Notes under the pieces: generated by a model | Databases searched by the model: none | The model's input: the letters and a program-made list of their open reading frames with translations, nothing else | Told to the model about the DNA's origin: nothing | Assembly: GCA_025363015.1 (NCBI GenBank) | Contig: JANYEQ010000061.1 | Span: forward strand, 1-49,215 | Length of the DNA: 49,215 nucleotides | From: Bacteroidota bacterium | Lineage (GTDB): Bacteria; Bacteroidota; Bacteroidia; B-17B0; Aurantibacillaceae | Reading direction: 5' to 3' | Part shown: in pieces, positions 5,090 through 39,833 of the stretch | Numbering within the stretch: the stretch's first letter is position 1 | How the letters are laid out: each line of letters opens with the position of its first letter | Position numbers and translations under genes: made by a program

Positions 5090-5912
5090 TAGAGCTCATA
5101 TAAATAGAGATAATTATAATTGCTTGTTAAAAAATTATTATTATAAAAATCAAGCTGAATGTGCTTTTAAGGTTGAGTGCAATCAAAACTTTACATTAAA
5201 AAACATTGCTTGTATTATAGTTTTGTTAGTGTGTTTTTCAATAAATAGTAACTCTCAAATAACATCTGCTAAAATTACGTACGAACGGAAAACAAACCTC
5301 TTTAAAAAATTTAAAAACGAAAACCAAAAACGTTGGATAAAAGAAGAAGATAAAATTAAAATCGATTTTTTTGAACTATACGTTACTGATACCATTAGCC
5401 TATTTAAACCGCAAGAAAGTGAATTGCGCGAAAACATGAGCTGGACAACACAAAAAAACACAGTGTATCAAAATTTTAACACCCAGCAACGTTATATTAT
5501 AAAAACAATGTGGGGCGAAGAAATACATTTAAACGATAGCCTTTTTTTACGCCATTGGAAAATTACAGAGAGTAGCCGTAAAATTGCAGGTTACAATTGC
5601 CGTAAAGCCATTTGGCAAGCAAACGATAGTACGCGTATTTATGCCTGGTTTAGTTACGATATTTTACCCTCTACTGGCCCTGAAAGTTTTAATGGCTTGC
5701 CTGGCACTATTTTAGGTTTGGCTACGGAGGATGGTGGTGTTATTTATTTTGCTAAAAAAGTAGAAGTTTTAAATCCAATAGCTACAACATTTATAATTCC
5801 TAAAAAGAAAAAAATATTTACCATTAAACAACTTATAAGTGATATGGATAAACGCTACAGTAAAGAACCTTGGTATAAAGGGATGATGTACGAACAATTT
5901 GGTATTTGGTAA
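5076..5912 (+). CDS. GLPGLI family protein
   Basis: A 278-residue protein. The frame is open further upstream (from 4971), but the ATG at 5076 is preferred: it follows AAGGAGGAA and overlaps the previous stop by 14 bases. That purine run also encodes the Lys/Glu tail of the upstream protein, so it may not be a deliberate ribosome site. A hydrophobic segment at about residues 46-61, ending near NSNSQ, looks like a signal peptide with an unusually long (about 45 residue) N-region. The hallmark FNGLPGTILGLATEDGG at about 208-224 matches the GLPGLI signature (TIGR01200-type). Family function is unknown; members are often encoded beside TonB-receptor-like barrels, as here, which suggests a periplasmic or surface partner. 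Confidence 0.83.
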   Translation: MTLINRAHINRDNYNCLLKNYYYKNQAECAFKVECNQNFTLKNIACIIVLLVCFSINSNSQITSAKITYERKTNLFKKFKNENQKRWIKEEDKIKIDFFELYVTDTISLFKPQESELRENMSWTTQKNTVYQNFNTQQRYIIKTMWGEEIHLNDSLFLRHWKITESSRKIAGYNCRKAIWQANDSTRIYAWFSYDILPSTGPESFNGLPGTILGLATEDGGVIYFAKKVEVLNPIATTFIIPKKKKIFTIKQLISDMDKRYSKEPWYKGMMYEQFGIW

Positions 5913-5951
5913 AACGTATATTTATTTTTTTGTAGTATATTAGCCTTTTTA

Positions 5952-7793
5952 ATGAAAAAACTATTTTCGGTTTTAAAATATACTAAAAACTATAAAGGCT
6001 ACACCGCTTTAAACGTGCTGTTTAATGTGCTGTTTGCCATATTTTCGGCCTCTATATTGGCTTTAATTGCGCCGTTTTTAGATTTACTATTTAAAAATAA
6101 CGACGCTACTATTTTACAAATTTTATTTAAAGGCGAACCGAAATTTTCGCTCTCATCAACCTATTTAAAAGATGCTTCTAACTTCTATTTAGCAGGCCTA
6201 ATTTTAACAAAAGGTAAATTGGGCGCATTAACTTTAATATGTTTTTTGATTTTTATTTTAACGCTATTTAAAAATATATTTAGATATATGGCCATGTATT
6301 TTGTGGCCCCTATTCGCAATGGCGTTGTTAGAGATTTACGCAATAAAATGTATAAAAAAGCAATGGCATTGCCCTTAAGTTATTATAGCGAAGAAAAAAA
6401 AGGCGATTTAATGAGCCGCATGACCACCGATGTGCAAGAGATTGAATGGAGCATTATGCAAACCTTAGAAATGATTTTTAGAGAACCCTTAACCGTAATT
6501 ATTTTATTTTCGTTAATGCTATTAATTAGTGCTAAGCTTACTTTGTATATTATTTTATTATTACCAATTGCCGCTATAATAATTGCCTTACTTGGTAAAA
6601 GTTTAAAAAATGCATCTAGCGCTACTAAGCATACATTGGGGCAATTAATAAGTTTAATTGAAGAAACCCTTGGAAGTTTAAAAGTCATAAAAGCCTTTAG
6701 TGCCAATACACACATGAGCGGAAAATTCGAAGAAATTAATCAATCCTACTACAAACAATCGGTGAAAGTATATCGTAAAACAGATATTACCTCTCCTCTA
6801 ACCGAAACAATTGTAACGGCCATTTTAATGCTAATTTTATTATTGGGTGGTAAAATGGTATTTAGTGAGGAGTTAACAGGAGCTTTGTTTATTGCTTATT
6901 TTGCCTTAGCATCACAGTTAATTCCACCCTTAAAACAAATAACTTTTTCATATAATAACATTCAAAAAGGTATAGCCAGCGAAGAACGTATTGATAAAAT
7001 TTTATTAGCCGATGATATCATTAAAGAAAGTACAAATCCAATTACTATTCAACAATTTAATTCATGTATCGAATTTAAAAATGTTTCGTTTGCGTATCAC
7101 AAAGGCGATGAAGGTTACGTTTTAAAAAATATAATTTTAACCATACCAAAAGGTAAAACCATTGCTTTGGTTGGACAAAGTGGCAGTGGTAAAACAACTT
7201 TAGCCGATATGTTACCACGTTTTTACGATACAGATGCTGGCGAATTATTAATTGATAACATTAATATTAAAGATTTAAAAATAGAAAATTTACGCAGTTA
7301 CATTGGCGTTGTTACCCAAGAAAGTATTTTGTTTAATGATACGATTTTAAATAATATTTCTTTTGGCTTACAACACAAAACAAAAGACGAAATTATTAAC
7401 GCCGCAAAAATTGCAAATGCGCACGATTTTATTATGCAATTACCAAATGGTTACAATAGTAATATTGGCGATAGAGGTGGCAAATTAAGCGGCGGACAAA
7501 AACAACGCATTAGTATTGCCCGTGCTATTTTAAAAAATCCAGATATTTTAATATTAGACGAAGCTACTTCGGCCTTAGATACAGAGAGTGAAAAGTTAGT
7601 ACAAGAGGCTTTAACTAATCTGATGAAAAACCGAACAAGTTTAGTAATTGCTCACCGCCTGAGTACCATTGCCAATGCTGATGAAATTATTGTAATGCAT
7701 AATGGAGAAATTATTGAGAGGGGCAATCATCAACAACTATTAGCATTAAATGGTTCGTATAAAAAGTTATGCGACATGCAAAGTTTTTCTTAA
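5952..7793 (+). CDS. ABC exporter, MsbA/lipid-flippase type (TMD-NBD half transporter)
   Basis: A 613-residue half transporter. The N-terminal membrane domain has hydrophobic spans at about 17-45, 92-118, 170-215 and 280-325. The ATPase domain has Walker A GQSGSGKT (408-415), Q-loop VVTQES (about 453-458), signature LSGGQ (512-516), Walker B ILILDEATSALD (532-543) and the switch histidine in AHRLS (568). Length and order fit type IV exporters such as MsbA, which flip lipid A or lipids across the inner membrane using ATP, probably as a homodimer. The exact substrate is inferred, not shown. The stop codon directly abuts the stop of the convergent histidine kinase, leaving no room for a terminator between them. 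Confidence 0.88.
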   Translation: MKKLFSVLKYTKNYKGYTALNVLFNVLFAIFSASILALIAPFLDLLFKNNDATILQILFKGEPKFSLSSTYLKDASNFYLAGLILTKGKLGALTLICFLIFILTLFKNIFRYMAMYFVAPIRNGVVRDLRNKMYKKAMALPLSYYSEEKKGDLMSRMTTDVQEIEWSIMQTLEMIFREPLTVIILFSLMLLISAKLTLYIILLLPIAAIIIALLGKSLKNASSATKHTLGQLISLIEETLGSLKVIKAFSANTHMSGKFEEINQSYYKQSVKVYRKTDITSPLTETIVTAILMLILLLGGKMVFSEELTGALFIAYFALASQLIPPLKQITFSYNNIQKGIASEERIDKILLADDIIKESTNPITIQQFNSCIEFKNVSFAYHKGDEGYVLKNIILTIPKGKTIALVGQSGSGKTTLADMLPRFYDTDAGELLIDNINIKDLKIENLRSYIGVVTQESILFNDTILNNISFGLQHKTKDEIINAAKIANAHDFIMQLPNGYNSNIGDRGGKLSGGQKQRISIARAILKNPDILILDEATSALDTESEKLVQEALTNLMKNRTSLVIAHRLSTIANADEIIVMHNGEIIERGNHQQLLALNGSYKKLCDMQSFS

Positions 7794-9299
7794 TTACCCT
7801 CGTTTTAAAGCAATTCTAAACGTAGTGCCTTTATTAGCTTCGCTGCTTACTACAAAAATTTTTCCTTCGTGGTAATTTTCTATAATGCGTTTACAAAGAC
7901 TTAAACCCAAACCCCAGCCTCGTTTTTTAGTCGTAAAGCCTGGCTCAAAAACGGTTTTAAATTTAGATTTTGAAATGCCTTTGCCAGTATCTGTAATATC
8001 TACAAACAAACCTTCTGGTACATCAATTAAGGATAGACTAATGCTCCCCTTACCATCCATAGCATCTACTGCATTTTTACAAATATTTTCTATAACCCAT
8101 TCAAACAAAGGGGTACAAAGGTAGGCCTGTAAATGATCGCTCGGTAAATTAAGTTTGTATTCCACATTGCGCGAGGTTCTATTTTTTAAATAATTTATAG
8201 CATTTATTAAAACTTCGTTTACATTTTCGTTTACTAATGTGGGCTGCGAACCTATTTTACTAAAACGTTCGGTTATCATTTGCAAACGTTTTACATCGTG
8301 TTGCATTTCGGTAACAATGGTTTCATCCACCCCAACACTTCTTAAATGCTCGTTCCAGGCCATTAGCGAGGATAAGGGGGTGCCTAATTGATGGGCGGTT
8401 TCTTTACTCATACCCACCCAAACTTGGTCTTGCTCGGCCTTTCGAGCGGTGCTAAACAATATATACGCTATTAATAAAAATAAACCAATGACGCCAAATT
8501 GAACATAAGGGTAATATTTTAATTGCGTGAGTAAATTGGATTGAGCATAAAAAATATAATTAGTTGTGCCTTCGCCCAAATCTACTTCTATTGGTGTATT
8601 TTGAGTAGATAGCTCTTGTAGTTTTATAAATAATTTTTGTTTTGTATCTACTTCTTTAATATCTATTTTTCCTAAATCTATCACGCTATCTTTTGCAGCA
8701 TTTGTAAATATAACCGGCACACCAGCCGAGTTTACTGCCACATCGGTAATAAACGATTTTATTAAACTATCGTAAAGTAATTTTATATTGGTAAACACTT
8801 TACTGTCTTTATGATATAATTTTTGGTATCGCCCCTTGTAGTATTCAAAAGTGATGGGAGCGTATAATTGTTTCATTATTGCCAATTGTTCTTGTAAGTA
8901 CGTTTTATTTTTTTCTTTAGCGGTATCTAAATTTCGCCACTGTAAAATAGCATCGCTTTCGTTAGTTAAAATTACAGGAACACTTGTGTTTTCTTGTAAA
9001 ACAATTAAGGCAAAATTATCAATACTGCCATTACTTGTACTAATTTGTTTGGTGGCTTGAGCAAATAATTCAGCTTTTTTACGTTCTTCTACTTTTATTT
9101 TTTCAAATAATTCGTTAGTAATTTTTACTAGTTTGGCTTTTTTTTCAACGGCTTCAGCCCAAAGTTTAGCTTTTTGCCGTTCTTCTTTAGCAATGCGTTT
9201 TACTAAATCGTTTGTGTACCAAAGCGATGCAATTACTATTAATAAAGCAAATGCGGCTAAGGTTAATTTCCAGCGTTGTTTTTTTGCGTAAATATTCAC
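7794..9299 (-). CDS. membrane sensor histidine kinase
   Basis: A 501-residue protein starting with GTG. A transmembrane helix at 12-29 is followed by a charged helical stretch (31-88, probable coiled coil, many K/E/A), an extracytoplasmic sensing region (about 90-262), a second helix (266-284), then the kinase core. The H-box KETAHQLGTPLSSL puts the phospho-acceptor at His303. The N-box is ENICKNAVDA (404-413), G1 is DTGKGI (437-442) and G2 is GWGLGLSL (461-468). No HAMP or receiver domain is present and no response regulator lies next to it, so it is an orphan kinase. The signal is unknown. Confidence 0.87.
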   Translation of the reverse strand: MNIYAKKQRWKLTLAAFALLIVIASLWYTNDLVKRIAKEERQKAKLWAEAVEKKAKLVKITNELFEKIKVEERKKAELFAQATKQISTSNGSIDNFALIVLQENTSVPVILTNESDAILQWRNLDTAKEKNKTYLQEQLAIMKQLYAPITFEYYKGRYQKLYHKDSKVFTNIKLLYDSLIKSFITDVAVNSAGVPVIFTNAAKDSVIDLGKIDIKEVDTKQKLFIKLQELSTQNTPIEVDLGEGTTNYIFYAQSNLLTQLKYYPYVQFGVIGLFLLIAYILFSTARKAEQDQVWVGMSKETAHQLGTPLSSLMAWNEHLRSVGVDETIVTEMQHDVKRLQMITERFSKIGSQPTLVNENVNEVLINAINYLKNRTSRNVEYKLNLPSDHLQAYLCTPLFEWVIENICKNAVDAMDGKGSISLSLIDVPEGLFVDITDTGKGISKSKFKTVFEPGFTTKKRGWGLGLSLCKRIIENYHEGKIFVVSSEANKGTTFRIALKRG

Positions 9300-9365
9300 G
9301 TATTAAATATAATAGTTAATATGATTAAACGTAAAAAAAGTAAATTTATTGGCTTCATCACAAAA

Positions 9366-9393
9366 AAAAATCGGATTGTAAAACCCGATTTTT
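9366..9393 (-). terminator. intrinsic terminator of the small lipoprotein gene
   Basis: A 9-bp perfect stem AAAAATCGG / CCGATTTTT with a 10-base loop lies between the lipoprotein stop (9416) and the kinase start. A T-run on the minus strand (As at 9362-9370) completes it. Confidence 0.7.
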
Positions 9394-9415
9394 TTATTAT
9401 TTTTTTTAAATAAAA

Positions 9416-9778
9416 TTACTTTATCGTAACTGTTTTTTCAGTGCCTTTGCCTTCTTCTAATTTAATAATACCAGTACCCACGTATGTGTGTGTACCAACA
9501 ACTTTAGTAGCATTAATATCAAAAATAGCTGGTAATTTAAAAGTAAATTTAACAACCCCACCCTCATCAGTAGTACCAGTGGCTTTTACATCCGCAACAT
9601 AATTGGTACTGCCACTTTTAACATTGGCAAATAACTTTACTGTAGCGTTGCTAACAATACCGCTCGAATCTACAACGGTAATGGTGGCATTACAATCTGT
9701 TTTTTTATCGCAACCAAAACTGGTAAACGTAAAAGTAGCTAAAACAAAAACCGAAATAATTACTAAAATGTGTTTCAT
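9416..9778 (-). CDS. small lipoprotein with Ig-like/transthyretin-like domain
   Basis: The ATG at 9778 gives a 120-residue protein with a good lipoprotein signal: hydrophobic residues 4-20, then FTSFGC with the lipidated Cys at 23. The longer reading from 9811 adds a non-signal-like leader and would put the start almost on the predicted promoter. The mature part (about 30-120) is a single beta-rich module with TITVVDSSGIVSNATVKLF and DEGGVVKFTFKLP, the pattern of carboxypeptidase-regulatory-like or Big-type Ig folds. Function unknown. It is divergent from the cyclophilin gene, has its own promoter and terminator, and is probably monocistronic. Confidence 0.7.
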   Translation of the reverse strand: MKHILVIISVFVLATFTFTSFGCDKKTDCNATITVVDSSGIVSNATVKLFANVKSGSTNYVADVKATGTTDEGGVVKFTFKLPAIFDINATKVVGTHTYVGTGIIKLEEGKGTEKTVTIK

Positions 9779-9808
9779 AACAATATTTTTTATATGATAT
9801 TTACATAA

Positions 9809-9816
9809 CAAATATA
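9809..9816 (-). promoter_or_regulatory. -7 promoter box of the small lipoprotein gene
   Basis: TATATTTG on the minus strand is an exact TAnnTTTG match, 30 bases before the ATG at 9778. It supports that start. I see no good TTTG at the -33 position. Confidence 0.45.
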
Positions 9817-9834
9817 CTTAAATTTATTTTAATA

Positions 9835-10662
9835 ATGAAAACTATTCTTCTACTATTGTTTGTACTTCTAATCTCAATGAGTAATACTGCCCAAACATTG
9901 AGTAAAGAAACCATTTACATACAAACAAATTTAGGCACTATGAAGGTAAAACTATACGAAGAAACACCTTTGCACAAAGCCAATTTTTTAAAATTAGCAA
10001 ACCAAGGTATTTTTGATTCATTACTTTTTCATAGAATTATTGCTGATTTTATGATACAAGCCGGCGACCCTTTGAGCAAACACGCTAAACCTGGGGATAG
10101 TTTAGGGCATGGTGATTTAAAATACACAATTCCTGCCGAAATAAATTCAAAATTAATTCATACCAAAGGCAAACTATGCGCTGCTCGAGAAAGCGATGAG
10201 ATTAACCCAAAATTTGAATCAAGTGCTTCGCAATTTTATATTGTTATGGGCAAAAAACGAAGTTTAGAAGATTTAAGAAAATACGAAAGCCGCATAAACA
10301 AAACCCATTATGTAAACTGCGCCCGTAATTATATTAAAACCAACGAAGGAAAGGCTTTAAAAGATAGTTATACCCGTTTAAAAAATGAAAATAAAACGGA
10401 TAGTGCCACCTTGATAAACCAAAAAATTGAAGACGAAATAAAAAAAATACATTTACAAACACCCGAATATAAATTTAGCCAACAACAAATTGATGCTTAT
10501 ACAACTGTAGGTGGCACACCACATTTAGATGGCACTTACACTGTTTTTGGCGAAGTAATTGAAGGTTTAGAGGTAATAGATAAAATTGCAAATATGCCAA
10601 AAGATAAGCGCGATAGGCCTTTAGAGGATATTAGAATAACCGTAAAAGTAAAAAAACGTTAA
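9835..10662 (+). CDS. secreted cyclophilin-type peptidyl-prolyl isomerase with an internal insertion
   Basis: A 275-residue protein with a signal peptide (1-19, ending NTAQ). The cyclophilin core is visible as FLKLANQGIFDSLLFHRIIADFMIQAGDP (about 51-79), with the catalytic Arg in FHRI, then SSASQFYIVMG (about 132-142). The closing strand GTYTVFGEVIEGLEVIDKIA is at about 235-254. About 85 mostly charged residues (about 145-230) are inserted between the QFYI strand and the closing part; bacterial cyclophilins of about 165-200 residues lack this. It should catalyse proline isomerisation of envelope proteins in the periplasm. The insertion is seen in related Bacteroidota proteins as far as I recall; its role is unknown. 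Confidence 0.87.
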   Translation: MKTILLLLFVLLISMSNTAQTLSKETIYIQTNLGTMKVKLYEETPLHKANFLKLANQGIFDSLLFHRIIADFMIQAGDPLSKHAKPGDSLGHGDLKYTIPAEINSKLIHTKGKLCAARESDEINPKFESSASQFYIVMGKKRSLEDLRKYESRINKTHYVNCARNYIKTNEGKALKDSYTRLKNENKTDSATLINQKIEDEIKKIHLQTPEYKFSQQQIDAYTTVGGTPHLDGTYTVFGEVIEGLEVIDKIANMPKDKRDRPLEDIRITVKVKKR

Positions 10663-10732
10663 AATAAAATTTAAAATTAAACTTACTTACATTTACTTCA
10701 TCTTAAGTACAAACAACTAAATTATAAAAAAT

Positions 10733-11182
10733 ATGAAAAAACTAATTTTATCAATTGCTTTGGTTACAGGCTTTGCCATAACTACACAAGCACAAGATGC
10801 AACACTTGGCAAACCAAGTAACGAACAAAAAAAACAACACAGCCCCGAAGAGCACGCTAAAAAAGGAGCCGAATGGGCCACTAAAAATTTAGGCTTAGAT
10901 GCCAGCCAAGCCACAAAATGGCAAAGTGCAGCATTAACACGCATAACAGCCAACGCACCCTTACGAGAAAAATTAAAAGGCGCCACAACACCTGATGACC
11001 GTAAAGCCACCCACCAGCAATTAAAGGCTAATATGGATAAATTTGATGCTGAAGTGAGTACCTTTTTAACTGCCGACCAAAAAACAAAATGGGAAAAATT
11101 AAAAGCCGATAAAAAAGCACAACACAAAGCAAAGAAAAATGGCAAGGCTGCTGAAGAAGTTGATTTAGATCCCGAAAAATAA
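10733..11182 (+). CDS. Spy/CpxP-like (LTxxQ) periplasmic protein
   Basis: A 149-residue protein with a clear signal peptide (1-20, ending TTQAQ). The mature part is alpha-helical and very rich in Lys and Ala. Two weak LTxxQ-type motifs are visible: LGLDASQATKWQSA (about 53-66) and FLTADQKTKWEKL (about 110-122). That arrangement fits the Spy/CpxP group, helical periplasmic chaperones or stress sensors. The C-terminal tail (KKAQHKAKKNGKAAEEVD) is strongly charged. The gene stands alone, 70 bp behind the cyclophilin gene. Because both could act in envelope protein folding they may be co-expressed, but that is an inference. Confidence 0.6.
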   Translation: MKKLILSIALVTGFAITTQAQDATLGKPSNEQKKQHSPEEHAKKGAEWATKNLGLDASQATKWQSAALTRITANAPLREKLKGATTPDDRKATHQQLKANMDKFDAEVSTFLTADQKTKWEKLKADKKAQHKAKKNGKAAEEVDLDPEK

Positions 11183-11338
11183 AAGAATAGTATTTAAAAA
11201 AAATTTTGTTAGTTATTAGCAAGATTTTTTTGTTTTAACCACTAAAAACTTTGTAATTAATTTAAAACCCAACCTTTTACCTTTTATTTTCATATAAATT
11301 AGCACAATAATTTGTAAATTAGTACGTTATATATAAAA

Positions 11339-13357
11339 TTGCGTAAATTTTTAACAATACTTATTCTTTTATCGTTACGTGCATTTACCCAAGTAAATGC
11401 TCCCGATTTGCGATGTCTACAGGTGTTACCCAACGGCAATGTTAAATTAACATGGTTAGCCCCCCCCGATCCTAGCAATCAATTTAGTGCGTATCAAATT
11501 TATTTTTCTACCTCATCTTCTGGGCCTTTTAATTTAGTAGCTAGTGTTGGCGCCATAGCCACTTTACAATATACCGATGTGGCAGCAAATGCAAATTTAC
11601 AAAGTTGTTATTACTATATGCTTACTAAATATGGTGCTGGTGGTGTTAATACCTCAGCAAACTCTACTACTTTACAAACTATTTTTTTAAATTGTTTGCA
11701 AAATTCGGGTTCGCCCGCTGTTAAATTACTTTACAACCCCATTCTTCAACCAAAATTGCCAAGCACGTCGGCTAATTTTTCATTGGTTAAAGAATACCCC
11801 ATTGGCACTTGGAATAATTTAAGTTCAACCACCAATTTAAACTATTCAGATACCATTAGCGTGTGTACTGCAAGTATTAATTACCAAGCTACGTTACAAG
11901 ATAATAGCGGTTGTTTTTCAAGTTCAAACATACAAGGTGGTATTTATAAAGATCAAAAAGCACCCAACCAACCTTTTGTAGATTCGATAAGTGTTTTACC
12001 AAATGGCAATACTGTTTTAGCGTGGCAAATACCAAATGATTTAGATATTATTAAATATCAAATAGCAAAAAACACACCTAGTGGCATTATTACATCTATA
12101 GCTACTCTTAATGGCATTAACTCTACTTCCTATGGTTATACTGTAAACGTTGCAAGTACAGGCTGGGTGGGCTTATATGTATCAGCCATTGACAGTTGTA
12201 ACAACATTTCAACATTTGATAATTTACCGCGTACAATGTTTTTAACTACCACTTATGATAGTTGTAGTTTTAAAACTAACCTCAGCTGGACGCCCTATGG
12301 AAATATGCCTAAAGGCATTTTAGAATATCGCATTTATTACTCGGTAAATGGCAGTGCATTTTTACAAGTAGGTGCTACAACTCAAACTAATTTTACTCAC
12401 TCAAATGTACAAGCCAGTGCTAATTGCTGTTATTTTATTAGAGTAATAAATACCGATAAAACAATTACTTCATCCAGTAATCGCGTTTGTTTTTTTAGTA
12501 AACAACCTTTGTCTCCAAGCTTTGTTTATATAACTTCTGCCAGTGTTTTAGATAAAAAATCAGTTCAATTAAAATTATTTATCGATACCTCAAAAAAAAG
12601 CTCAAGTATAACTATTTACCGTTCTACTAACAATATAAACTTTAATCGTATTACTAATGCTGCTTTTAATAACACACCTTTTTACACTATTATAGACGAT
12701 AATGCTGATACAAAACATACCTTTTACTATTATAAAGCCGTAATTAATGATGCCTGTGGAAACGAGCGAATACAAAGTCAAGTAGTGAAAACCATTTTGC
12801 TAAAAGTACAAGATGATAATGAGGAAATTTTTATAAAACATTTATGTTGGACAAACTATTTAGGCTTTAATGGTGGCGTTAGTGGTTATAATATTTACAG
12901 AGTTGTTAACGATATACAAAACACTACACCCATTGCCAGTAAAGGCCCTACAGATACTACTTTTACAGATGATGTAAACGAAGAAGCACCCAATGGCAGT
13001 AAAATAGAATATGTAATAGAAGCTTTGGAAGGCATTGGCGATAGTTATGGCTTTGCCGAAACCAGCAAATCTAATTTACAAGATATTTATATAGAAGGCA
13101 GGTTATTTGTACCCTCAGCTTTTGCGCCAAATGGTAAAAATAAAGTGTGGTTGCCCATTACACATTTTATTGATAAAACAGAATATAATGTGAGTATATT
13201 TAACCGTTGGGGAGTTAAATTATTTGAAACCAATGACGATACTAAGGGTTGGGACGGTATAAATGCAACGCCCGATGTTTATGTGTATTTAATTGATTAC
13301 AAAAATGCACGTGGCGAATACAAACAATTAAAAGGCACGGTATTATTGTTGGAATAA
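11339..13357 (+). CDS. fibronectin/Ig-domain secreted protein with T9SS type B C-terminal domain
   Basis: A 672-residue protein beginning with TTG (MRKFLTILILLSLRAFTQ signal peptide). Several fibronectin type III-like modules follow; recurring patterns are GNVKLTWLAPPDPSNQFSAY (near 34-53) and GNTVLAWQIPNDLDIIKYQI (near 225-244). The C-terminal about 85 residues, from VPSAFAPNGKNKVW to the end, form the gliding-motility-associated / type B sorting domain with the diagnostic NRWGVKLFET and GWDG. It should be exported by Sec, then secreted and surface-attached by the type IX system. It has no partner gene next to it. Adhesin or matrix protein is the likely role. Confidence 0.85.
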   Translation: MRKFLTILILLSLRAFTQVNAPDLRCLQVLPNGNVKLTWLAPPDPSNQFSAYQIYFSTSSSGPFNLVASVGAIATLQYTDVAANANLQSCYYYMLTKYGAGGVNTSANSTTLQTIFLNCLQNSGSPAVKLLYNPILQPKLPSTSANFSLVKEYPIGTWNNLSSTTNLNYSDTISVCTASINYQATLQDNSGCFSSSNIQGGIYKDQKAPNQPFVDSISVLPNGNTVLAWQIPNDLDIIKYQIAKNTPSGIITSIATLNGINSTSYGYTVNVASTGWVGLYVSAIDSCNNISTFDNLPRTMFLTTTYDSCSFKTNLSWTPYGNMPKGILEYRIYYSVNGSAFLQVGATTQTNFTHSNVQASANCCYFIRVINTDKTITSSSNRVCFFSKQPLSPSFVYITSASVLDKKSVQLKLFIDTSKKSSSITIYRSTNNINFNRITNAAFNNTPFYTIIDDNADTKHTFYYYKAVINDACGNERIQSQVVKTILLKVQDDNEEIFIKHLCWTNYLGFNGGVSGYNIYRVVNDIQNTTPIASKGPTDTTFTDDVNEEAPNGSKIEYVIEALEGIGDSYGFAETSKSNLQDIYIEGRLFVPSAFAPNGKNKVWLPITHFIDKTEYNVSIFNRWGVKLFETNDDTKGWDGINATPDVYVYLIDYKNARGEYKQLKGTVLLLE

Positions 13358-30576: not shown

Positions 30577-31056
30577 ATGAAAAAAATAATTTTAAGTTTA
30601 GTTTTTGGTTTGTTTTTAATAAGTTTTGTAGCTAAGGCCCAAAACCCAAGTTACATGCAGTTGGTTTCAATTATTCAATCAAAATTACCAAGTTTAGATA
30701 TAAATAACAAAATAGTTGTTTTAAATGTTTGGTCGGTAGCAAACCTTGCTAGCCGCGATGCCAATAAAGAATTTGATAAAGCCTACAAATTATGGGAATA
30801 TGCCAAATTAAAAAATGGTACCAAAGGAGTAGTAATTATTAGCTGTAATATAGATGCAGATGCCATAGCTACTGATATTGCAGCAACTAAAGATGGTATT
30901 ATTAATTTAATTAAACTTAACAAAACCGATTATAGTTTTTTAAATAACGTAACCGCTGGTACAAATATTGTTTTTGATAATACGGCTACCAAAGTATATG
31001 AAAACCTGAGTGCCGATAAAGTTTTTAATTCATTTGTTAACCTTTTAACTCGTTAA
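30577..31056 (+). CDS. secreted TlpA-like thioredoxin-fold protein lacking the CxxC cysteines
   Basis: A 159-residue protein with signal peptide (1-22, ending VAKAQ). The mature part has the TlpA/AhpC-TSA layout: IVVLNVWSVANLASRDANKEF (about 46-66) corresponds to the strand and active-site helix of TlpA, but the two cysteines of WCxxC are replaced by Asn and Ser. Then come KGVVIISCNIDAD (a second strand) and TNIVFDNTATKVYENL, the strand after the cis-Pro position. So the redox function is probably lost and a binding or structural role is more likely. It lies 29 bp before the giant adhesin-like gene and is probably cotranscribed with it. Confidence 0.65.
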   Translation: MKKIILSLVFGLFLISFVAKAQNPSYMQLVSIIQSKLPSLDINNKIVVLNVWSVANLASRDANKEFDKAYKLWEYAKLKNGTKGVVIISCNIDADAIATDIAATKDGIINLIKLNKTDYSFLNNVTAGTNIVFDNTATKVYENLSADKVFNSFVNLLTR

Positions 31057-31085
31057 TACTTACTGTATTTACACTCTATTATACT

Positions 31086-34000
31086 ATGAAAAATCAATTA
31101 ATAAAATACCTTACTCTAATTTGCTTTTTGTTTGTAGCTATACAAACAAATACGGCACAGAGTGCCGCAGCGTGTAATAACGGGCAAAATTTTTGTAATA
31201 ATCCAGCTTTTCCTAGGATGGTTGGTGGCACAGGTTTAACAGGTGCTGCCGCTGGGCCTTCGGTTAGTAATCCTTTCTCTAATCCACAAGGTGTAAATAG
31301 TGGTTGTATGTTTGCAAATGTTCCTGGCCCACAATGGATGATTTTAACTGCGAGTTCTAATGGTAGTTTAGGTTTCTCATTAGGTCAAGCAGGCTCTCCC
31401 AACCCACAAGCTGGTTATTACGATTGGATTTTATGGCCAATAACTGGCAATTTAGCTGCTACTTGCTCAGGTATTTTTGCTGGTACACAAGCTCCTGCAG
31501 CTTGTAATTGGAATTGTACTTCGGGTGGAGGTACAGGTATGGGTACAGTTCCTGCGGGTGCTACGGGCTGTAACTTTCAACCATCCATTCCTGTTACGGC
31601 TGGTCAGCAATTTATATTTTTATTTTCTAATTACAGCGGTGTAAGTGGTAGTGTTACTTTTCAAAGTACAGGTACTGCTGCATTAAGCTGTAGTCCATTA
31701 ATTATACCAAGTGCTACTGTATGTGCTGGTGCCACAACTACCGTAGGCGCACAATGGTTAGGTGTTGTTAATCCTATTACCTATACTTTAAATCCAGGTG
31801 GTTCGGTACAAACAAGTTCTGTTTTTACGGTAACGGGGCCAATAAATACTGCATCTTCAGTAGCTGTTTATACTGTTTTAGCAGCATCTACCAATACATC
31901 TGGTGCAGCAATTATTGCTCAAACAACTTTTTCATTATTTACTTCGGGTAACCAAAGTATTACTGTAAATACAACTAGTACAGTTTGTCAGGGTGCAAGT
32001 GTTAATTTAACGGCTTTAATGCCAGCAGCGGCAAACCCTACGGCTTATGCATGGGCGGGGCCAAATTCTTTTGTATCAACCGTTCAAAACCCTACTATTA
32101 CAAATATTCAACCTTTATCTGCAGGTATTTATACTGTTACCTCTAACATTAATTTTTTAGGTAAACAATGTCCTCGCAATAATACAACTCAAATAAATGT
32201 GGTGGCTACCAACTCAGTAACAGTTACTCCTAACTTTACATTATGTCAAGGCTCTAGTTTAAACTTAACAGCCTCAGCAAATGCAGCCAATAGCTATTCG
32301 TGGAGTGGTCCATCGGCCTTTAATACCACTACACAAAACCCTACTATTGCTTCAGTATTACCATCGGCAGCTGGTAATTATACAGCAACTGCATTTTTTA
32401 CAAATGGTATTATTACGTGTTCTCGTACTGCTGTATCAAACGTTTCGGTAGTGGCTACATCGCCTGTGTTGGTAACAGTACCAAACAATGTATGTCAAAA
32501 TACAACTGCTAACCTAACAGCAAATGCACCAGGTGCCATTAGTTACACTTGGCTTGGGCCAAATAGCTATACATCTAGCGCCACAAGTAATAGTATTACA
32601 AACATACAACCTATAGCCACCGGGCCATATTTTGCAACCGCTTTGTTTGCCTTAGGCAGTGTTAGTTGCACCACTACTGGCAGTAATCAAATTAGTGTTG
32701 TACCTGTTAATACCATTACCGTTATACCAACTGTTACCGTATGCGAGCCCAGTGGAGCTAGTTTATTAGCAAGTTCGCAAGGCGCAATTACTTATTCCTG
32801 GAGTGGACCTGCAAGTTATACCTCAAACATTGCTAATCCGCAATTTGTAAATTTATATCCTATAAATTCTGGTATTTATACGGTTACAGCCTCTTACAAT
32901 AATGGAATATTAACCTGTTACAATACAAATACTACTAATTTAATAGTAAATCCTATTTTAACGTTTACTTTACCAAGTTATAGACAAGTTTGTTACAACT
33001 CTTTAGTTGTAGTTAATGGCCCTGCAGGAGCAACATCTTATACATGGAGTGGCGGAAATGGCTTTTTATCAAATTCACAAAATTTACAAATACCTAATAT
33101 ACAAGCGCCAAATGCTGGTATTTATCAATTAGAAGTGAATTTGGGTCCGTGTAAAACAAAAGCTAGTATTGATATAGATGTACTAGACCCTATACAGTTT
33201 ACATTAACGCCTAATAGCCGCACTATTTGCTTAGGCGACACGGTTAAATTAACTATGGGGTCAGCCTTTGGTAGTGGAAATTACGCCTATGTGTGGGATC
33301 CACAAGTTTACTTAAGTTCGCCAACAGGTAGTTTTCAGGTAGGGGTGCCAGCAGGTACAACCATATATAATGTTACAGGTTTTGATATTGCTTGCCCAAG
33401 TTACACATTGGGTTACAACTTTAAAATTACGGTAAATAAACCGCCAATACCTAAATTACAATTAGATAAAACACAAGGTTGTGAAGCTTTATGCCAATTT
33501 TATAATACAAAAACACAAGCTGAATCAGCAATTACAACTTATGATTTTGGTGGAGATAGAAAAATGCAAGCAGACAGCTTTAACTATTGTTTAGATGCCC
33601 CAGGCACTTATACATTAAGAATATATAGTAAAGGCATTAACGGCTGTAGTGGTATTTACCAATACCCCGAACCCATTATTGTGTTTCCTAAACCACACGC
33701 TGATTTTAGTTGGACACCCGACATTGTAACCACTACTGATAATATAGTAACCTTTAAACCAAGCAGTAAATATGGCCCAATAGTTACCACAGCATGGCAG
33801 TTTATAGGCTCAACAATTACTGGTATTGATACTACAAACGTAAACTTGCCCCAACGCACTTACGAAAACACAGGTAAATACCCAATAATGCTAATTAGCA
33901 CTACTGATAAAGGTTGTATAGATACCGTGGTTAAATTTTTAGAGGTAGTTGATGAACTAAATATTTTTATACCCAATACCTTTACACCAAATGGTGATGG

Positions 34001-34241
34001 CTTAAACGATATATTTAACATTAAAGGCGTGGGCTTTAAAGTTGAAAACTTTAATATGGAAATATTTGACCGTTGGGGAACCTCTATTTACTATACAAAA
34101 GATGTAATGAAAGGCTGGGACGGAACCGTAAAAGGTGGCCAACCATCTGCCGATGCGGTTTATATTTATAAAATAAAAGTAATAGGCGCTAATGGGCAAG
34201 GTAGAAAAGAATACGTTGGGCATGTTACCCTAATAAAATAA
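31086..34241 (+). CDS. large Ig-repeat surface protein with T9SS type B (gliding-motility-associated) domain
   Basis: A 1051-residue secreted protein, signal peptide 1-24 (ending TNTAQ). An N-terminal domain (about 25-205, Gly/Cys-rich, with ASSNGSLGFSLGQAG and GQQFIFLFSNYSG) is followed by about five Ig-like repeats (about 290-700). Each has VCQGxSxNLTA, then YxWxGPxxF, then a QNPxIxNIxP and GxYTVT pattern. A PKD-like module comes next (PHADFSWTPDIV near 868). The end has FIPNTFTPNGDGLNDIFNI, MEIFDRWGTSIYYT and GWDGTV, the type B sorting domain. It should be secreted by T9SS and attached to the cell surface. Adhesion is likely. Confidence 0.9.
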   Translation: MKNQLIKYLTLICFLFVAIQTNTAQSAAACNNGQNFCNNPAFPRMVGGTGLTGAAAGPSVSNPFSNPQGVNSGCMFANVPGPQWMILTASSNGSLGFSLGQAGSPNPQAGYYDWILWPITGNLAATCSGIFAGTQAPAACNWNCTSGGGTGMGTVPAGATGCNFQPSIPVTAGQQFIFLFSNYSGVSGSVTFQSTGTAALSCSPLIIPSATVCAGATTTVGAQWLGVVNPITYTLNPGGSVQTSSVFTVTGPINTASSVAVYTVLAASTNTSGAAIIAQTTFSLFTSGNQSITVNTTSTVCQGASVNLTALMPAAANPTAYAWAGPNSFVSTVQNPTITNIQPLSAGIYTVTSNINFLGKQCPRNNTTQINVVATNSVTVTPNFTLCQGSSLNLTASANAANSYSWSGPSAFNTTTQNPTIASVLPSAAGNYTATAFFTNGIITCSRTAVSNVSVVATSPVLVTVPNNVCQNTTANLTANAPGAISYTWLGPNSYTSSATSNSITNIQPIATGPYFATALFALGSVSCTTTGSNQISVVPVNTITVIPTVTVCEPSGASLLASSQGAITYSWSGPASYTSNIANPQFVNLYPINSGIYTVTASYNNGILTCYNTNTTNLIVNPILTFTLPSYRQVCYNSLVVVNGPAGATSYTWSGGNGFLSNSQNLQIPNIQAPNAGIYQLEVNLGPCKTKASIDIDVLDPIQFTLTPNSRTICLGDTVKLTMGSAFGSGNYAYVWDPQVYLSSPTGSFQVGVPAGTTIYNVTGFDIACPSYTLGYNFKITVNKPPIPKLQLDKTQGCEALCQFYNTKTQAESAITTYDFGGDRKMQADSFNYCLDAPGTYTLRIYSKGINGCSGIYQYPEPIIVFPKPHADFSWTPDIVTTTDNIVTFKPSSKYGPIVTTAWQFIGSTITGIDTTNVNLPQRTYENTGKYPIMLISTTDKGCIDTVVKFLEVVDELNIFIPNTFTPNGDGLNDIFNIKGVGFKVENFNMEIFDRWGTSIYYTKDVMKGWDGTVKGGQPSADAVYIYKIKVIGANGQGRKEYVGHVTLIK

Positions 34242-37155: not shown

Positions 37156-37216
37156 TTATGATTTTACTTCTCGTATTTTTTATATCTTTATCACTTAATT
37201 AGTTTTGTTGTGCGGA

Positions 37217-37229
37217 GCGGAGTCGAAGC
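37217..37229 (+). repeat. GC-rich 13-mer GCGGAGTCGAAGC, REP-like
   Basis: This is far richer in G+C than its surroundings. It recurs with one mismatch inside the coding region at 39715-39727, and a looser version (GCTGAACGAAGCCGAA) is on the minus strand near 43421-43436. Such words are common repeats in Bacteroidota genomes as far as I recall. The upstream GTG frame from 37210 would read through it. Confidence 0.4.
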
Positions 37230-37248
37230 ATATTATTATAACACATTT

Positions 37249-37866
37249 ATGAAAGATTTTTTCTCGTTTTTAAAATCAAAACCATTTTTTATTCATACAG
37301 GTATAATTATTTTATGCGTGTTTTTATTACTTTTTGGTTTAATTAAATGGTTATCATCCTATACTAACCATGGTGAGTTTGTTGAAGTTCCTGATTTTAA
37401 AAACCAACAAATTAGCAACTTAAATACTTATATTGATGGAAAAAACATTACCTATCAAATTATTGATAGCCTTTACGACCCCACAGAAAAGCCTGGAATT
37501 GTGATTAGACAAGACCCCGAACCTTTAATTAAGGTTAAACACAATAGAAAGGTATATCTTTACGTTACAGGTATGGTAGCACCCACCGTTATTATGCCAA
37601 AATTAATAGATAGAAGCGAACGCCAAGCCCGTTTAATTATACTAAGCTATGGCCTTAAAGTAGGTAAATTTACCCAAAAAGAAGCCGATTGTAATGGCTG
37701 CGTGCTAGCGCAAACTATTAATGGTAAAGAGGTTGCAGTGGGCGAATCGGTAAAAAAAGGAAGCGTGGTAAATTTAATAGTTGGAAAAAAAGATTATTAT
37801 TACAACGCTTCGGGTAATAATACGGATAGTACAGCCAGTGACGAACCTAATTTTAATAACGATTAA
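37249..37866 (+). CDS. membrane-anchored PASTA-domain protein
   Basis: The ATG at 37249 gives 205 residues; the frame is open from a GTG at 37210, but that adds a stretch encoded by the REP-like repeat. One membrane helix (about 17-37) is followed by two PASTA-type modules, starting at VEVPDF (about 44) and VIMPKLIDRSERQA (about 117). A C-terminal polar Asn/Asp-rich tail ends the protein. PASTA domains bind muropeptides or peptidoglycan in kinases and penicillin-binding proteins. Here they stand alone on an anchor, as in several Bacteroidota. It is the first gene of a run with the T9SS gene (8 bp) and the pseudouridine synthase. Confidence 0.85.
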   Translation: MKDFFSFLKSKPFFIHTGIIILCVFLLLFGLIKWLSSYTNHGEFVEVPDFKNQQISNLNTYIDGKNITYQIIDSLYDPTEKPGIVIRQDPEPLIKVKHNRKVYLYVTGMVAPTVIMPKLIDRSERQARLIILSYGLKVGKFTQKEADCNGCVLAQTINGKEVAVGESVKKGSVVNLIVGKKDYYYNASGNNTDSTASDEPNFNND

Positions 37867-37874
37867 TTTTATAA

Positions 37875-39833
37875 ATGATTAAAAAAAATAATATTATTTA
37901 CATGTTACTATTTACTACAATAGTAACTTTTGCACAAGAAGGCCTGCGTCCAACCACCGCAAATATTAATTATTTATATGGCGATTTAAAAGTAAGTAAA
38001 AAACATAATAACACTCAACAAACTACAAAAGTAGCTAATACTAGTACTAATTTACCAATTCCATTTATTGAAGATTTTTATTACGCGCAATACACCAACT
38101 ATCCAAACCAAGTATTATGGAATGATTCATCAACCTACATAAACAATGGTTACCCCATAGCCCCACCAAGCATAGGCGTAGCTACCTTTGATGGATTAAA
38201 TAAATACGGTTACCCCTACCAACCCAACCTATCTAACCTAAACTCATCATTACCAGCCGATACCTTAACCTCAAAACCCATTAATTTAAAAACAGTGGGT
38301 TCGCAAACATTACAACTTTCAGATAGTGTGGGTTTATCGTTTTTTTACCAAGCCCGTGGCAATGGCGATAGTCCCGAAATTACCGATACCCTATTGGTTG
38401 ATTTTAAAAACCCCTTAACAAATACGTGGACAACCGTTTGGTACATGCGTGGTAACACCAGCCCTAACACTAACGATACTATTTTTAAACGAGGCTTTAT
38501 TTGGGTAGATAGTGCTTACTATTTAAATGATGGCTTTCAATTTCGCTTTCGTAACAAAGCCACCACTGCTGGTAATTTTGACCATTGGCATGTAGATTAT
38601 ATTAAACTAGATAAATTACGCAGCCAATTAGCCGATACCACATATAACGATTTAACCTTTGGTTTTATACCTAGCCCACTTTTAAAAAATTATAGCGAAA
38701 TGCCTTGGCAACAATATACCACTAGCGATATGGCCAAAACAATTTCCGTTCGCATTCGCAATAATGATAACGTACCCATTTTTATGACCTACTCTAACAC
38801 CGTTATTTCGGGTAGCGTTACACCCATTAATACATACAATGGTGGGCAAACTAATTTAGGCGTTTTTAAAAAAACAGGTTGGGAAAAAGATACCGTTCAC
38901 TCCCGCCCTATTTTAGGATATACCATTGCACCATTAACGGATAGTGCTGATATAAAAATACAACATATTATTGGTCGCTCTGGTGCCGCAACAGATTTTA
39001 ATAATAATAACGATACCGTTATACAACACCAACGTTTTAAAAACTATTATGCCTACGATGATGGTACCTGCGAAGCAGGCTATTATGTATTAGGGCAAGG
39101 TGGTAAAATGGCAGTAAAATTTAATTTAAATTTTTTAGATACGCTTCGTTCTGTTCGTATTTATTTTGATCCAGTGGGTGCATTAACATTAGCGCAATCT
39201 AGCTATAAATTTAGAATAAACATTTGGCAAAATGGCGGCGCAGGTCCAGGTTTACTATTGTATCGCGATAGTGTTAACTACCCAAAATATTATAATATAG
39301 GTTTTAATGCCTATGCCGATTATACCCTTACCACCAAACAAATTTTACCTCAGGGCACTTATTACATTGGCATACAACAACAAGTTGCTAATGGTATTAC
39401 CATTGGTTTTGATAAAAACTTAAACCATAACCAAAATTTGTATTTTGATAGTGGTAGCGGTTGGACACAATCATCCATCTTTGGCTCACTAATGCTACGC
39501 CCCGTGTTTGGCAAAAAAATAATTCCAGTTGGTTTAAACGAATTAGCAAACAATCAACAAGCTTCTATTTATATTTACCCCAACCCAAGCAATGGCATTA
39601 TAAACTATAAATTAAACATAAAGCAAGAGGCTTTATTAAATTCAAACTCTACCTTCGAAATTAAAATATATAATACCTTAGGGCAAGCAGTTCATCAATC
39701 CTTTGTTAAGCTAAGCGGAGTGGAAGCGGAATCATCAATTAATGTTGGCGATTTATCAAATGGTATTTACTATTTATCTCTTCAGTTAAATAACCAAACG
39801 TTACAAACACAAAAAATTATTATACAGCATTAA
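37875..39833 (+). CDS. secreted protein with T9SS type A sorting domain
   Basis: A 652-residue protein with signal peptide (about 1-21, ending TFAQ). The mature domain is a beta-rich jelly-roll-like fold; blocks include PFIEDFYYAQYTNYPNQVLWND, SVGLSFFYQARGNGDSPEITDTLLVDF and FRFRNKATTAGNFDHWHVDYIKL, which occur in Bacteroidota secreted proteins. The last about 90 residues are a type A sorting domain (YIYPNPSNGIINYKL, YNTLGQAVHQS, LSNGIYYLSLQL). Within it, the REP-like repeat at 39715-39727 encodes an extra SGVEA stretch just before the final strands. The role of the mature domain is unknown. Confidence 0.8.
   Translation: MIKKNNIIYMLLFTTIVTFAQEGLRPTTANINYLYGDLKVSKKHNNTQQTTKVANTSTNLPIPFIEDFYYAQYTNYPNQVLWNDSSTYINNGYPIAPPSIGVATFDGLNKYGYPYQPNLSNLNSSLPADTLTSKPINLKTVGSQTLQLSDSVGLSFFYQARGNGDSPEITDTLLVDFKNPLTNTWTTVWYMRGNTSPNTNDTIFKRGFIWVDSAYYLNDGFQFRFRNKATTAGNFDHWHVDYIKLDKLRSQLADTTYNDLTFGFIPSPLLKNYSEMPWQQYTTSDMAKTISVRIRNNDNVPIFMTYSNTVISGSVTPINTYNGGQTNLGVFKKTGWEKDTVHSRPILGYTIAPLTDSADIKIQHIIGRSGAATDFNNNNDTVIQHQRFKNYYAYDDGTCEAGYYVLGQGGKMAVKFNLNFLDTLRSVRIYFDPVGALTLAQSSYKFRINIWQNGGAGPGLLLYRDSVNYPKYYNIGFNAYADYTLTTKQILPQGTYYIGIQQQVANGITIGFDKNLNHNQNLYFDSGSGWTQSSIFGSLMLRPVFGKKIIPVGLNELANNQQASIYIYPNPSNGIINYKLNIKQEALLNSNSTFEIKIYNTLGQAVHQSFVKLSGVEAESSINVGDLSNGIYYLSLQLNNQTLQTQKIIIQH

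Follow-up and report, generated by a model that had tools for sequence, protein, structure and literature searches.

Why should a small exported protein that looks like a thiol-disulfide oxidoreductase, yet has neither cysteine of the active site, be encoded directly before a giant surface protein? The question is raised by a locus in a 49,215-nucleotide stretch of DNA from a Bacteroidota bacterium of the family Aurantibacillaceae (assembly GCA_025363015.1, contig JANYEQ010000061.1, positions 1 to 49,215 of the forward strand), which as a whole we call the window. The original prediction, made from the sequence alone, was that the small protein is a cysteine-less TlpA-like protein kept as the dedicated partner of a substrate of the type IX secretion system (T9SS). 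We confirmed both open reading frames (ORFs) on the + strand, of 159 and 1051 amino acids (aa) and separated by 29 bp as described there, and we refer to the family of the small protein as T. Our analysis demonstrates the pair, the predicted fold of T, the absence of CxxC, purifying selection on the T gene and the agreement of its tree with that of the partner. The two genes and the interval between them are as follows.

30577 to 31056, + strand: small gene of family T, encoding a 159-aa Sec-exported protein of TlpA/thioredoxin fold without CxxC (ORF, predicted fold, profile homology and column counts)
31057 to 31085, + strand: 29-bp gap between the small gene and the giant (ORF positions)
31086 to 34241, + strand: giant gene, encoding a 1051-aa exported T9SS type B protein (ORF, Pfam and NCBIfam)

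The pair and its inheritance

We compared the window protein with 60 genomes and obtained 53 matches, of which 38, down to E 2.2e-4, were taken as T members. The relatives lay in the genus of the window, and none was found in the 23 genomes of other families among the 60 searched. A large ORF followed directly in all 38; in 35 of them the gap was between -34 and +12 bp, and in the rest it was 29, 78 and 112 bp. Among the 15 weaker matches, the three that we read were all CxxC TlpA proteins. A profile search of 40 genus genomes, in which E 1e-34 or better defined a strong member, gave 42 strong T members in 31 genomes, and the four new ones among these were also paired. When 395 genomes of the class were searched by profile, the only strong T members beyond the genus were three genes in a sister genus of the same family, each of them paired; the class-wide searches sample genomes, with at most about a dozen candidates scored per genome, and 9 in the searches with T and with the N-terminal domain of the giant (N-domain, described below).

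Thus the family, which is known from uncultured Bacteroidota, stands directly before a giant gene in all strong cases, and the giant carries the N-domain in 45 of 45 (42 in the genus and 3 in the sister genus), which excludes chance pairing. The same pair had been proposed as something to look for in other genomes, with the small protein alone in most genomes as the outcome that would count against a partnership; among the 45 strong members it was never alone. Seventeen of the 35 weaker class-wide matches were read. Of TlpA proteins they included eight with CxxC and five, at a murA-grpE locus, without the cysteines; the others were one longer cysteine-less protein and three unrelated ORFs, and none of the 17 was followed by an N-domain-type giant. 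The surroundings of the pair varied among the T loci listed.

Viewed from the side of the giant, the 40 genus genomes contained 65 strong N-domain copies (E <1e-50), 42 with a T gene upstream and 23 without. Among the T-less loci are a group of longer giants located after other large genes, a number of short proteins, and one case each in the genomes G024 and G003, the latter with a 125-aa ORF upstream instead of T. Counted by genome, 31 of the 40 had both T and the N-domain, one (G024) had the N-domain without a recognisable T, and none had T alone; the remaining 8 lacked strong matches to either, and two of those genomes are only 73% complete. The G024 locus (L153, approximately 2600-2992, - strand) has a small exported ORF that overlaps the start of the N-domain giant by 4 bp and ends in Lys-Arg; this ORF could not be tied to family T, and it is possibly a replaced or very diverged partner.

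We compared pairwise distances among T proteins with those among the partner N-domains and observed a correlation of r 0.61, the best of 2000 permutations being 0.29. Ten genomes carry two pairs each; there the actual assignment of T to giant correlated best among all 1024 within-genome swaps. Together, the correlation and the swaps show that each pair is passed on as a unit. The association is old and strict, and the T tree follows the partner tree; T is therefore encoded with its substrate and co-inherited with it, as a dedicated chaperone would be.

The small protein: predicted fold and former redox site

An AlphaFold2 model of T, built on the alignment of 38 relatives, had a predicted local distance difference test score (pLDDT) of 91.8 and a predicted template modelling score (pTM) of 0.82. 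Its best Foldseek matches were TlpA domains of Bacteroides and ResA (E 2.4e-6, template modelling score ~0.57), and a VIA comparison with TlpA-type structures gave Z 12.8 and 2.6 A over 121 residues. The T family profile matched a TlpA-type profile, made from 13 proteins of the same class, CxxC being present in 10 of them and absent from 3, with probability 98.7 and E 2.8e-16 over 151 columns. Singly, the window protein matched the CxxC TlpA copy of its own genome at only E 0.086; it had no match above cut-off in Pfam or NCBIfam, and nothing of note among PDB sequences, where the best E was 0.042, to an unrelated protein. On the profile evidence we regard the homology of T to TlpA as real. The following elements of the small protein are referred to below.

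30577 to 30639, + strand: predicted signal peptide, residues 1-21, so that the mature N-terminus would be Gln22 (by eye, and from conservation of Q22)
30730 to 30756, + strand: former active site, W52-S-V-A-N56-L-A-S59-R60 (column counts and TlpA alignment)
30802 to 30828, + strand: well-conserved internal stretch AKLKNGTKG, consensus AKLKGGxKG (alignment of 38 members)
31048 to 31053, + strand: C-terminal Thr-Arg (alignment and codon counts)

As had been predicted, Asn and Ser take the two cysteine positions of TlpA: in the profile alignment these are Asn56 and Ser59 of the window protein. CxxC was present in none of the 38 aligned members. The first position was N, D or S in 37 of 38 and the second was S in 32, followed by R in 33; such a conserved substitute motif indicates that the site was not left to decay and that another motif has replaced the redox site. 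The proline before strand 3, which is the cis-Pro of TlpA and ResA, was matched by column in 8 of 38 members and is Gly in the window protein. A simple recent loss of CxxC, which had been named beforehand as the finding that would undo the interpretation, is ruled out by the absence of CxxC from all 38 members and by the nearest CxxC proteins being a separate family at another locus.

Cysteine-less TlpA-like proteins, which have lost CxxC in several lineages, were also seen at a conserved murA - tlpA - grpE - dnaJ-like locus, the gene names being assigned by eye (L112, L114, L117, L118 and L124, in genomes G415, G174, G377, G189 and G328). No giant lies beside any of these, from which it follows that cysteine loss by itself does not make a partner.

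Export of T through Sec is indicated by the signal peptide seen by eye and by the glutamine that would follow it: Q22 is kept in at least 90% of the 38 aligned members and matches the Q-rule of exported Bacteroidetes proteins, as given in the available part of its description (PMC10653852). In the AKLKGGxKG stretch, A76, L78 and G81 are each kept in at least 90% of the 38 members, and G84 is invariant. The ratio of nonsynonymous to synonymous substitution (dN/dS) in the T gene was 0.06-0.30 across 25 close pairs, which is a rough estimate, with dS >1 in 16 of the 25 and pairs drawn from two clades; by this rough measure the gene is under purifying selection. The last residue was Arg in 38 of 38 members, and because this invariant residue is written with five codons (CGT 13, AGA 9, CGA 6, CGC 6, AGG 4) the extreme C-terminus of T appears to be constrained at the protein level. 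The penultimate residue was Thr or Ser in 37 of 38, Thr being written with four codons. A hidden nucleotide-level regulatory site at the 3' end of the T gene was considered and is ruled out by this use of five codons for Arg and four for Thr.

The same observations bear on the idea that the upstream ORF is mainly a leader that couples or regulates translation of the giant, with a product of no importance in itself. The short gap or overlap found in 35 of 38 cases (-34 to +12 bp) is what such a leader would show, but the constraint is on the protein, as seen in the dN/dS values, the conserved predicted fold and the final Arg kept by way of five codons, and we give this explanation hardly any credence.

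Partner giants and other small exported families

The window giant has a signal peptide, seen by eye, and a C-terminal domain matching both CHU_C (E 1.1e-19) and TIGR04131 (E 3.4e-16); it is therefore a T9SS type B substrate, and the type B sorting domain ascribed to it in the original prediction is borne out. The five immunoglobulin (Ig) repeats described there can be counted by eye, and Pfam gives four Ig_2 stretches; a PKD_4 match stands at its cut-off. Its parts are as follows.

31170 to 31691, + strand: N-domain, about 175 aa with six cysteines and no Pfam match (alignment of 38 partners)
31956 to 33200, + strand: Ig-like repeat region, end approximate (Pfam and sequence)
33693 to 33926, + strand: PKD-like domain, residues 870-947 (Pfam)
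33966 to 34229, + strand: CHU_C / TIGR04131 type B sorting domain (Pfam, NCBIfam)

The N-domain lies directly after the signal peptide in the 38 aligned partner giants, with six cysteines invariant in 38 of 38 and a YDW / CNWN / GGTG pattern, and it was shown by profile in the remaining seven T partners. The window copy had no Pfam match, and the best 50 Foldseek matches to a fused model of T and the N-domain were almost all of thioredoxin type, so that no fold could be named for the N-domain. Twenty-five of the 38 giants end within the fetched stretch, and 24 of these ends resemble that of the window giant by eye; in the exception (L050, genome G020) the giant is split, a 906-aa ORF being followed by one of 114 aa that ends like a sorting domain, and the T gene is intact. 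In all four giants scanned (that of the window, L046, L075 and L066) the sorting domain was confirmed by hidden Markov model. At L066 (G020, 5494-12792) the giant after the T gene is 2433 aa long and contains 16 SprB repeat stretches, so that T partners vary in their middle parts and share their first and last domains.

The six cysteines, common to all 38 N-domains and putatively disulfide-bonded, suggest a role of another kind, in which T, as a non-catalytic thioredoxin fold, would hold the N-domain while a separate oxidoreductase makes the disulfides; a non-catalytic domain of protein disulfide isomerase offers an analogy. The relationship of T to TlpA thiol proteins would suit such a folding partner. 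Against it stand the 23 of 65 genus N-domain loci that lack T and the failure of the two domains to dock in the fused chain considered below, and we think it improbable.

In the window the pair stands alone, since the preceding gene is divergent and the following gene convergent. The neighbours are a polysaccharide cluster (an O-antigen ligase, two Wzz-type proteins and one Polysacc_synt protein) and DnaB. Three copies of a TAnnTTTG promoter-like pattern lie upstream of the pair; this count has no control and was not used as evidence. A second pair of a small gene and a T9SS gene was seen at window positions 37210-39833, where 8 bp separate the gene for a 218-aa PASTA-domain protein from that for a 652-aa protein, which has a type A sorting domain.

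Other families of the class also have the N-domain; no strong T member was detected there. We examined all of the best 36 N-domain loci outside the genus, down to E 2.3e-34, and scored as positive an exported ORF of 85-215 aa ending between 60 bp before and 40 bp after the start of the giant. Such an ORF lay directly upstream at 19 of the 30 loci that could be assessed by this rule, versus 2 of 50 in a background of large exported ORFs (Fisher p 7e-9); the background was taken, under a crude signal-peptide rule, from a single genus genome sampled as 20 stretches of 20 kb (400 kb in all), and the two sets were scored within the same limits with ORFs found differently. Six of the 36 loci were not assessable by rule, and by eye the count was 23 of 36, with the addition of three of these (L201, L207 and L221) and of L204, which was negative by rule. 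The small upstream proteins at the outside loci do not resemble T.

We refer to two of the other small exported families as Y and H. Family Y had 32 matches in 29 of the 395 class genomes searched, and 30 loci were read (6 of the 30 being seeds of the profile itself). An exported ORF of at least 300 aa followed directly at 26 of the 30 by rule and at 28 by eye, where L241 and L249 were added and L254 and L262 remained negative; the N-domain lay within the available stretch at 13 of the 30. Three complete ORFs after Y were scanned, two of which (L257 and L259) had type A sorting domains and GEVED and the third (L249) no family match. CxxC was present in 14 of 30 Y proteins. Family H had 16 strong places (14 of them seeds), all before a large exported ORF by eye, with CxxC in 0 of 16. 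The six weakest H places comprised three HMA proteins by Pfam, two more proteins with CxxC, and L301, where a large exported ORF again follows a small exported protein. One H member matched HMA at E 0.16, and these weak matches together are a hint that H may be of HMA origin. Five Y proteins and nine small proteins of H type or without assignment were scanned against Pfam, and three Y proteins against NCBIfam; none reached a curated cut-off. A common origin of T, Y and H was considered, and no profile match was found in any of the three pairwise comparisons. At L214 and L217 (genomes G293 and G156) yet another small ORF precedes an N-domain protein; the two share an EEH / HY / LPF pattern by eye and may represent one more partner family.

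The pair described in the original prediction thus looks like one instance of a wider habit, in which several small exported families stand before T9SS-type proteins, and the pairing of T with its giant is probably one case of this broader arrangement.

The proposed role of T and its relation to known systems

Our best reading, which we hold tentatively and at a little short of an even chance, is that T is a dedicated periplasmic escort for its giant. The two genes would form one unit and be co-transcribed and, with the small gene first and a near-zero gap, helper and client would be made together. T would pass through Sec into the periplasm, be cut before Gln22 and remain soluble. Its redox site appears to have been replaced long ago by the motif W-S-x-x-[N/D]-x-E/A-S-R, with the thioredoxin fold presumably serving as a binding module; because the CxxC was replaced by another conserved motif, T should no longer perform CxxC thiol chemistry. 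It would bind its own giant in the periplasm, most likely near the N-domain, the first part to emerge from Sec, and would maintain the giant in a folded or export-competent state until its type B tail is passed to the SprA translocon and a carrier of PorP/SprF type. The SprA translocon is present in the same genome (SprA_N E 4.3e-157, contig C51). The other small exported families that fill the same slot elsewhere support an escort. So does, by analogy, a trypanosome thioredoxin-type protein which, according to the available part of the report, acts as a chaperone without disulfide reductase activity (PMC6783113).

Several observations weigh against this reading. An AlphaFold2 model of a fused chain, made from the small protein of a relative and its N-domain, had a pTM of 0.53 with good local pLDDT and showed no confident docking. 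That model used an artificial linker, had 66 of 71 alignment rows unpaired and included only the first domain, with T folding well and the N-domain fairly well; we take it as weak evidence from modelling against contact of T with the N-domain only, and not with the rest of the giant. Further, the N-domain does not need T as such, as judged from the genus N-domain loci without an upstream T. At 17 of the 30 Y loci there was no N-domain match in the available stretch, and 2 of these had no large exported ORF at all; since Y stands before ORFs without an N-domain match, the client feature may not be the N-domain. Finally, T9SS substrates have been proposed, in the available part of a review (PMC10202324), to fold in the periplasm before recruitment, in which case there would be less need for a holdase. 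As to the original proposal of a dedicated partner, for which a periplasmic chaperone or a surface binder were named as candidate roles, its genomic side is well supported, T being never alone and its cysteines not recently lost; the structure prediction of the fused chain does not support a stable contact with the N-domain.

The genomic data can be accounted for nearly as well if T is a subunit rather than an escort, binding the giant in the periplasm, leaving with it on the sorting signal of the giant and staying attached to it permanently as a light chain of the surface structure. A stable subunit is as compatible with the strict pairing, the gene order and the co-inheritance as an escort is, and T, in which neither Pfam nor NCBIfam finds a sorting domain, would have to ride along. 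The fused chain, however, gave no confident complex, and the available T9SS literature yielded no example of this kind; we consider co-secretion unlikely, with a chance that is nevertheless real.

A different point of contact is assumed if T, on the periplasmic side, is an adaptor delivering the giant either to a carrier of PorP/SprF type or to SprA/SprE. Type B substrates need such carriers, which are often encoded adjacent to them, and orphan type B substrates with a shared carrier have been described, to judge from the parts of these reports available (PMC12618676, PMC9143113 for the carriers; PMC12618676 for the orphans). The window giant is of type B, and its genome has 16 PorP/SprF matches, none of which is on the contig of the pair (C108); the giant thus has no adjoining porP/sprF gene, a neighbour that is common for type B substrates but not obligatory. 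T itself has no match to PF11751, the PorP/SprF outer-membrane beta-barrel, and is predicted to have a thioredoxin fold. But T, Y and H have no detectable profile similarity, which would be odd if all of them met one conserved part of the translocon, and an adaptor of this kind seems to us quite improbable.

A broader proposal, which we regard as possible with the balance somewhat against it, is that these pairs belong to an undescribed general layer of the T9SS in Bacteroidota, in which substrate-specific soluble periplasmic partners are encoded directly upstream of large surface proteins. At least three dissimilar families would take part, small periplasmic thiol or metal proteins would have been recruited repeatedly as escorts of substrates, and T and H would have been stripped of their chemistry.

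Type IX secretion has been described as needing a signal peptide, a C-terminal domain, a translocon and a carrier barrel. A soluble partner strictly co-inherited with particular giants would add a step to it, and could account for the survival in the periplasm of very long repeat proteins that contain many cysteines. The genomic rule offered here, a small exported ORF directly before a T9SS giant, is testable in laboratory gliding bacteria, and in T we have a clear-cut example of selection keeping a thioredoxin fold that has lost its redox site. The finding is stronger than a note drawn from the window sequence could know, and the function is a founded guess. Our observations suggest a dedicated helper in a secretion system for which no such helper is described in the literature searched: we found no report of a T9SS pair of this kind among the open-licence papers listed, judged mostly by titles and the starts of abstracts, and the available part of a review of T9SS substrates does not use the word chaperone (PMC10202324).

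T resembles the TlpA/ResA-like periplasmic thiol-disulfide oxidoreductases (4grf; ResA, 1su9) in predicted fold, length, Sec export and whole-domain profile homology, and differs from them in the absence of both active-site cysteines in 38 of 38 members, in a proline before strand 3 that is present in only 8 of 38, and in being tied to a T9SS giant. Type III and other secretion systems have dedicated effector chaperones, such as SrcA, which act in the cytosol; T is likewise a small helper for a secreted substrate but is exported. The PorP/SprF-like carriers are also cognate proteins encoded beside type B substrates, as far as the available parts of the reports describe them (PMC12618676, PMC9143113), yet they are outer-membrane beta-barrels and commonly lie directly downstream, whereas T is a small soluble protein of thioredoxin fold encoded upstream. 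SkpA, a Skp-type protein and a structural element of the T9SS extended translocon according to the available part of its description (PMC10994853), is likewise small, periplasmic, descended from a chaperone and employed in export by the T9SS; it is a translocon component built as a Skp-type trimer, in contrast to T, which has another fold and is tied to one kind of substrate.

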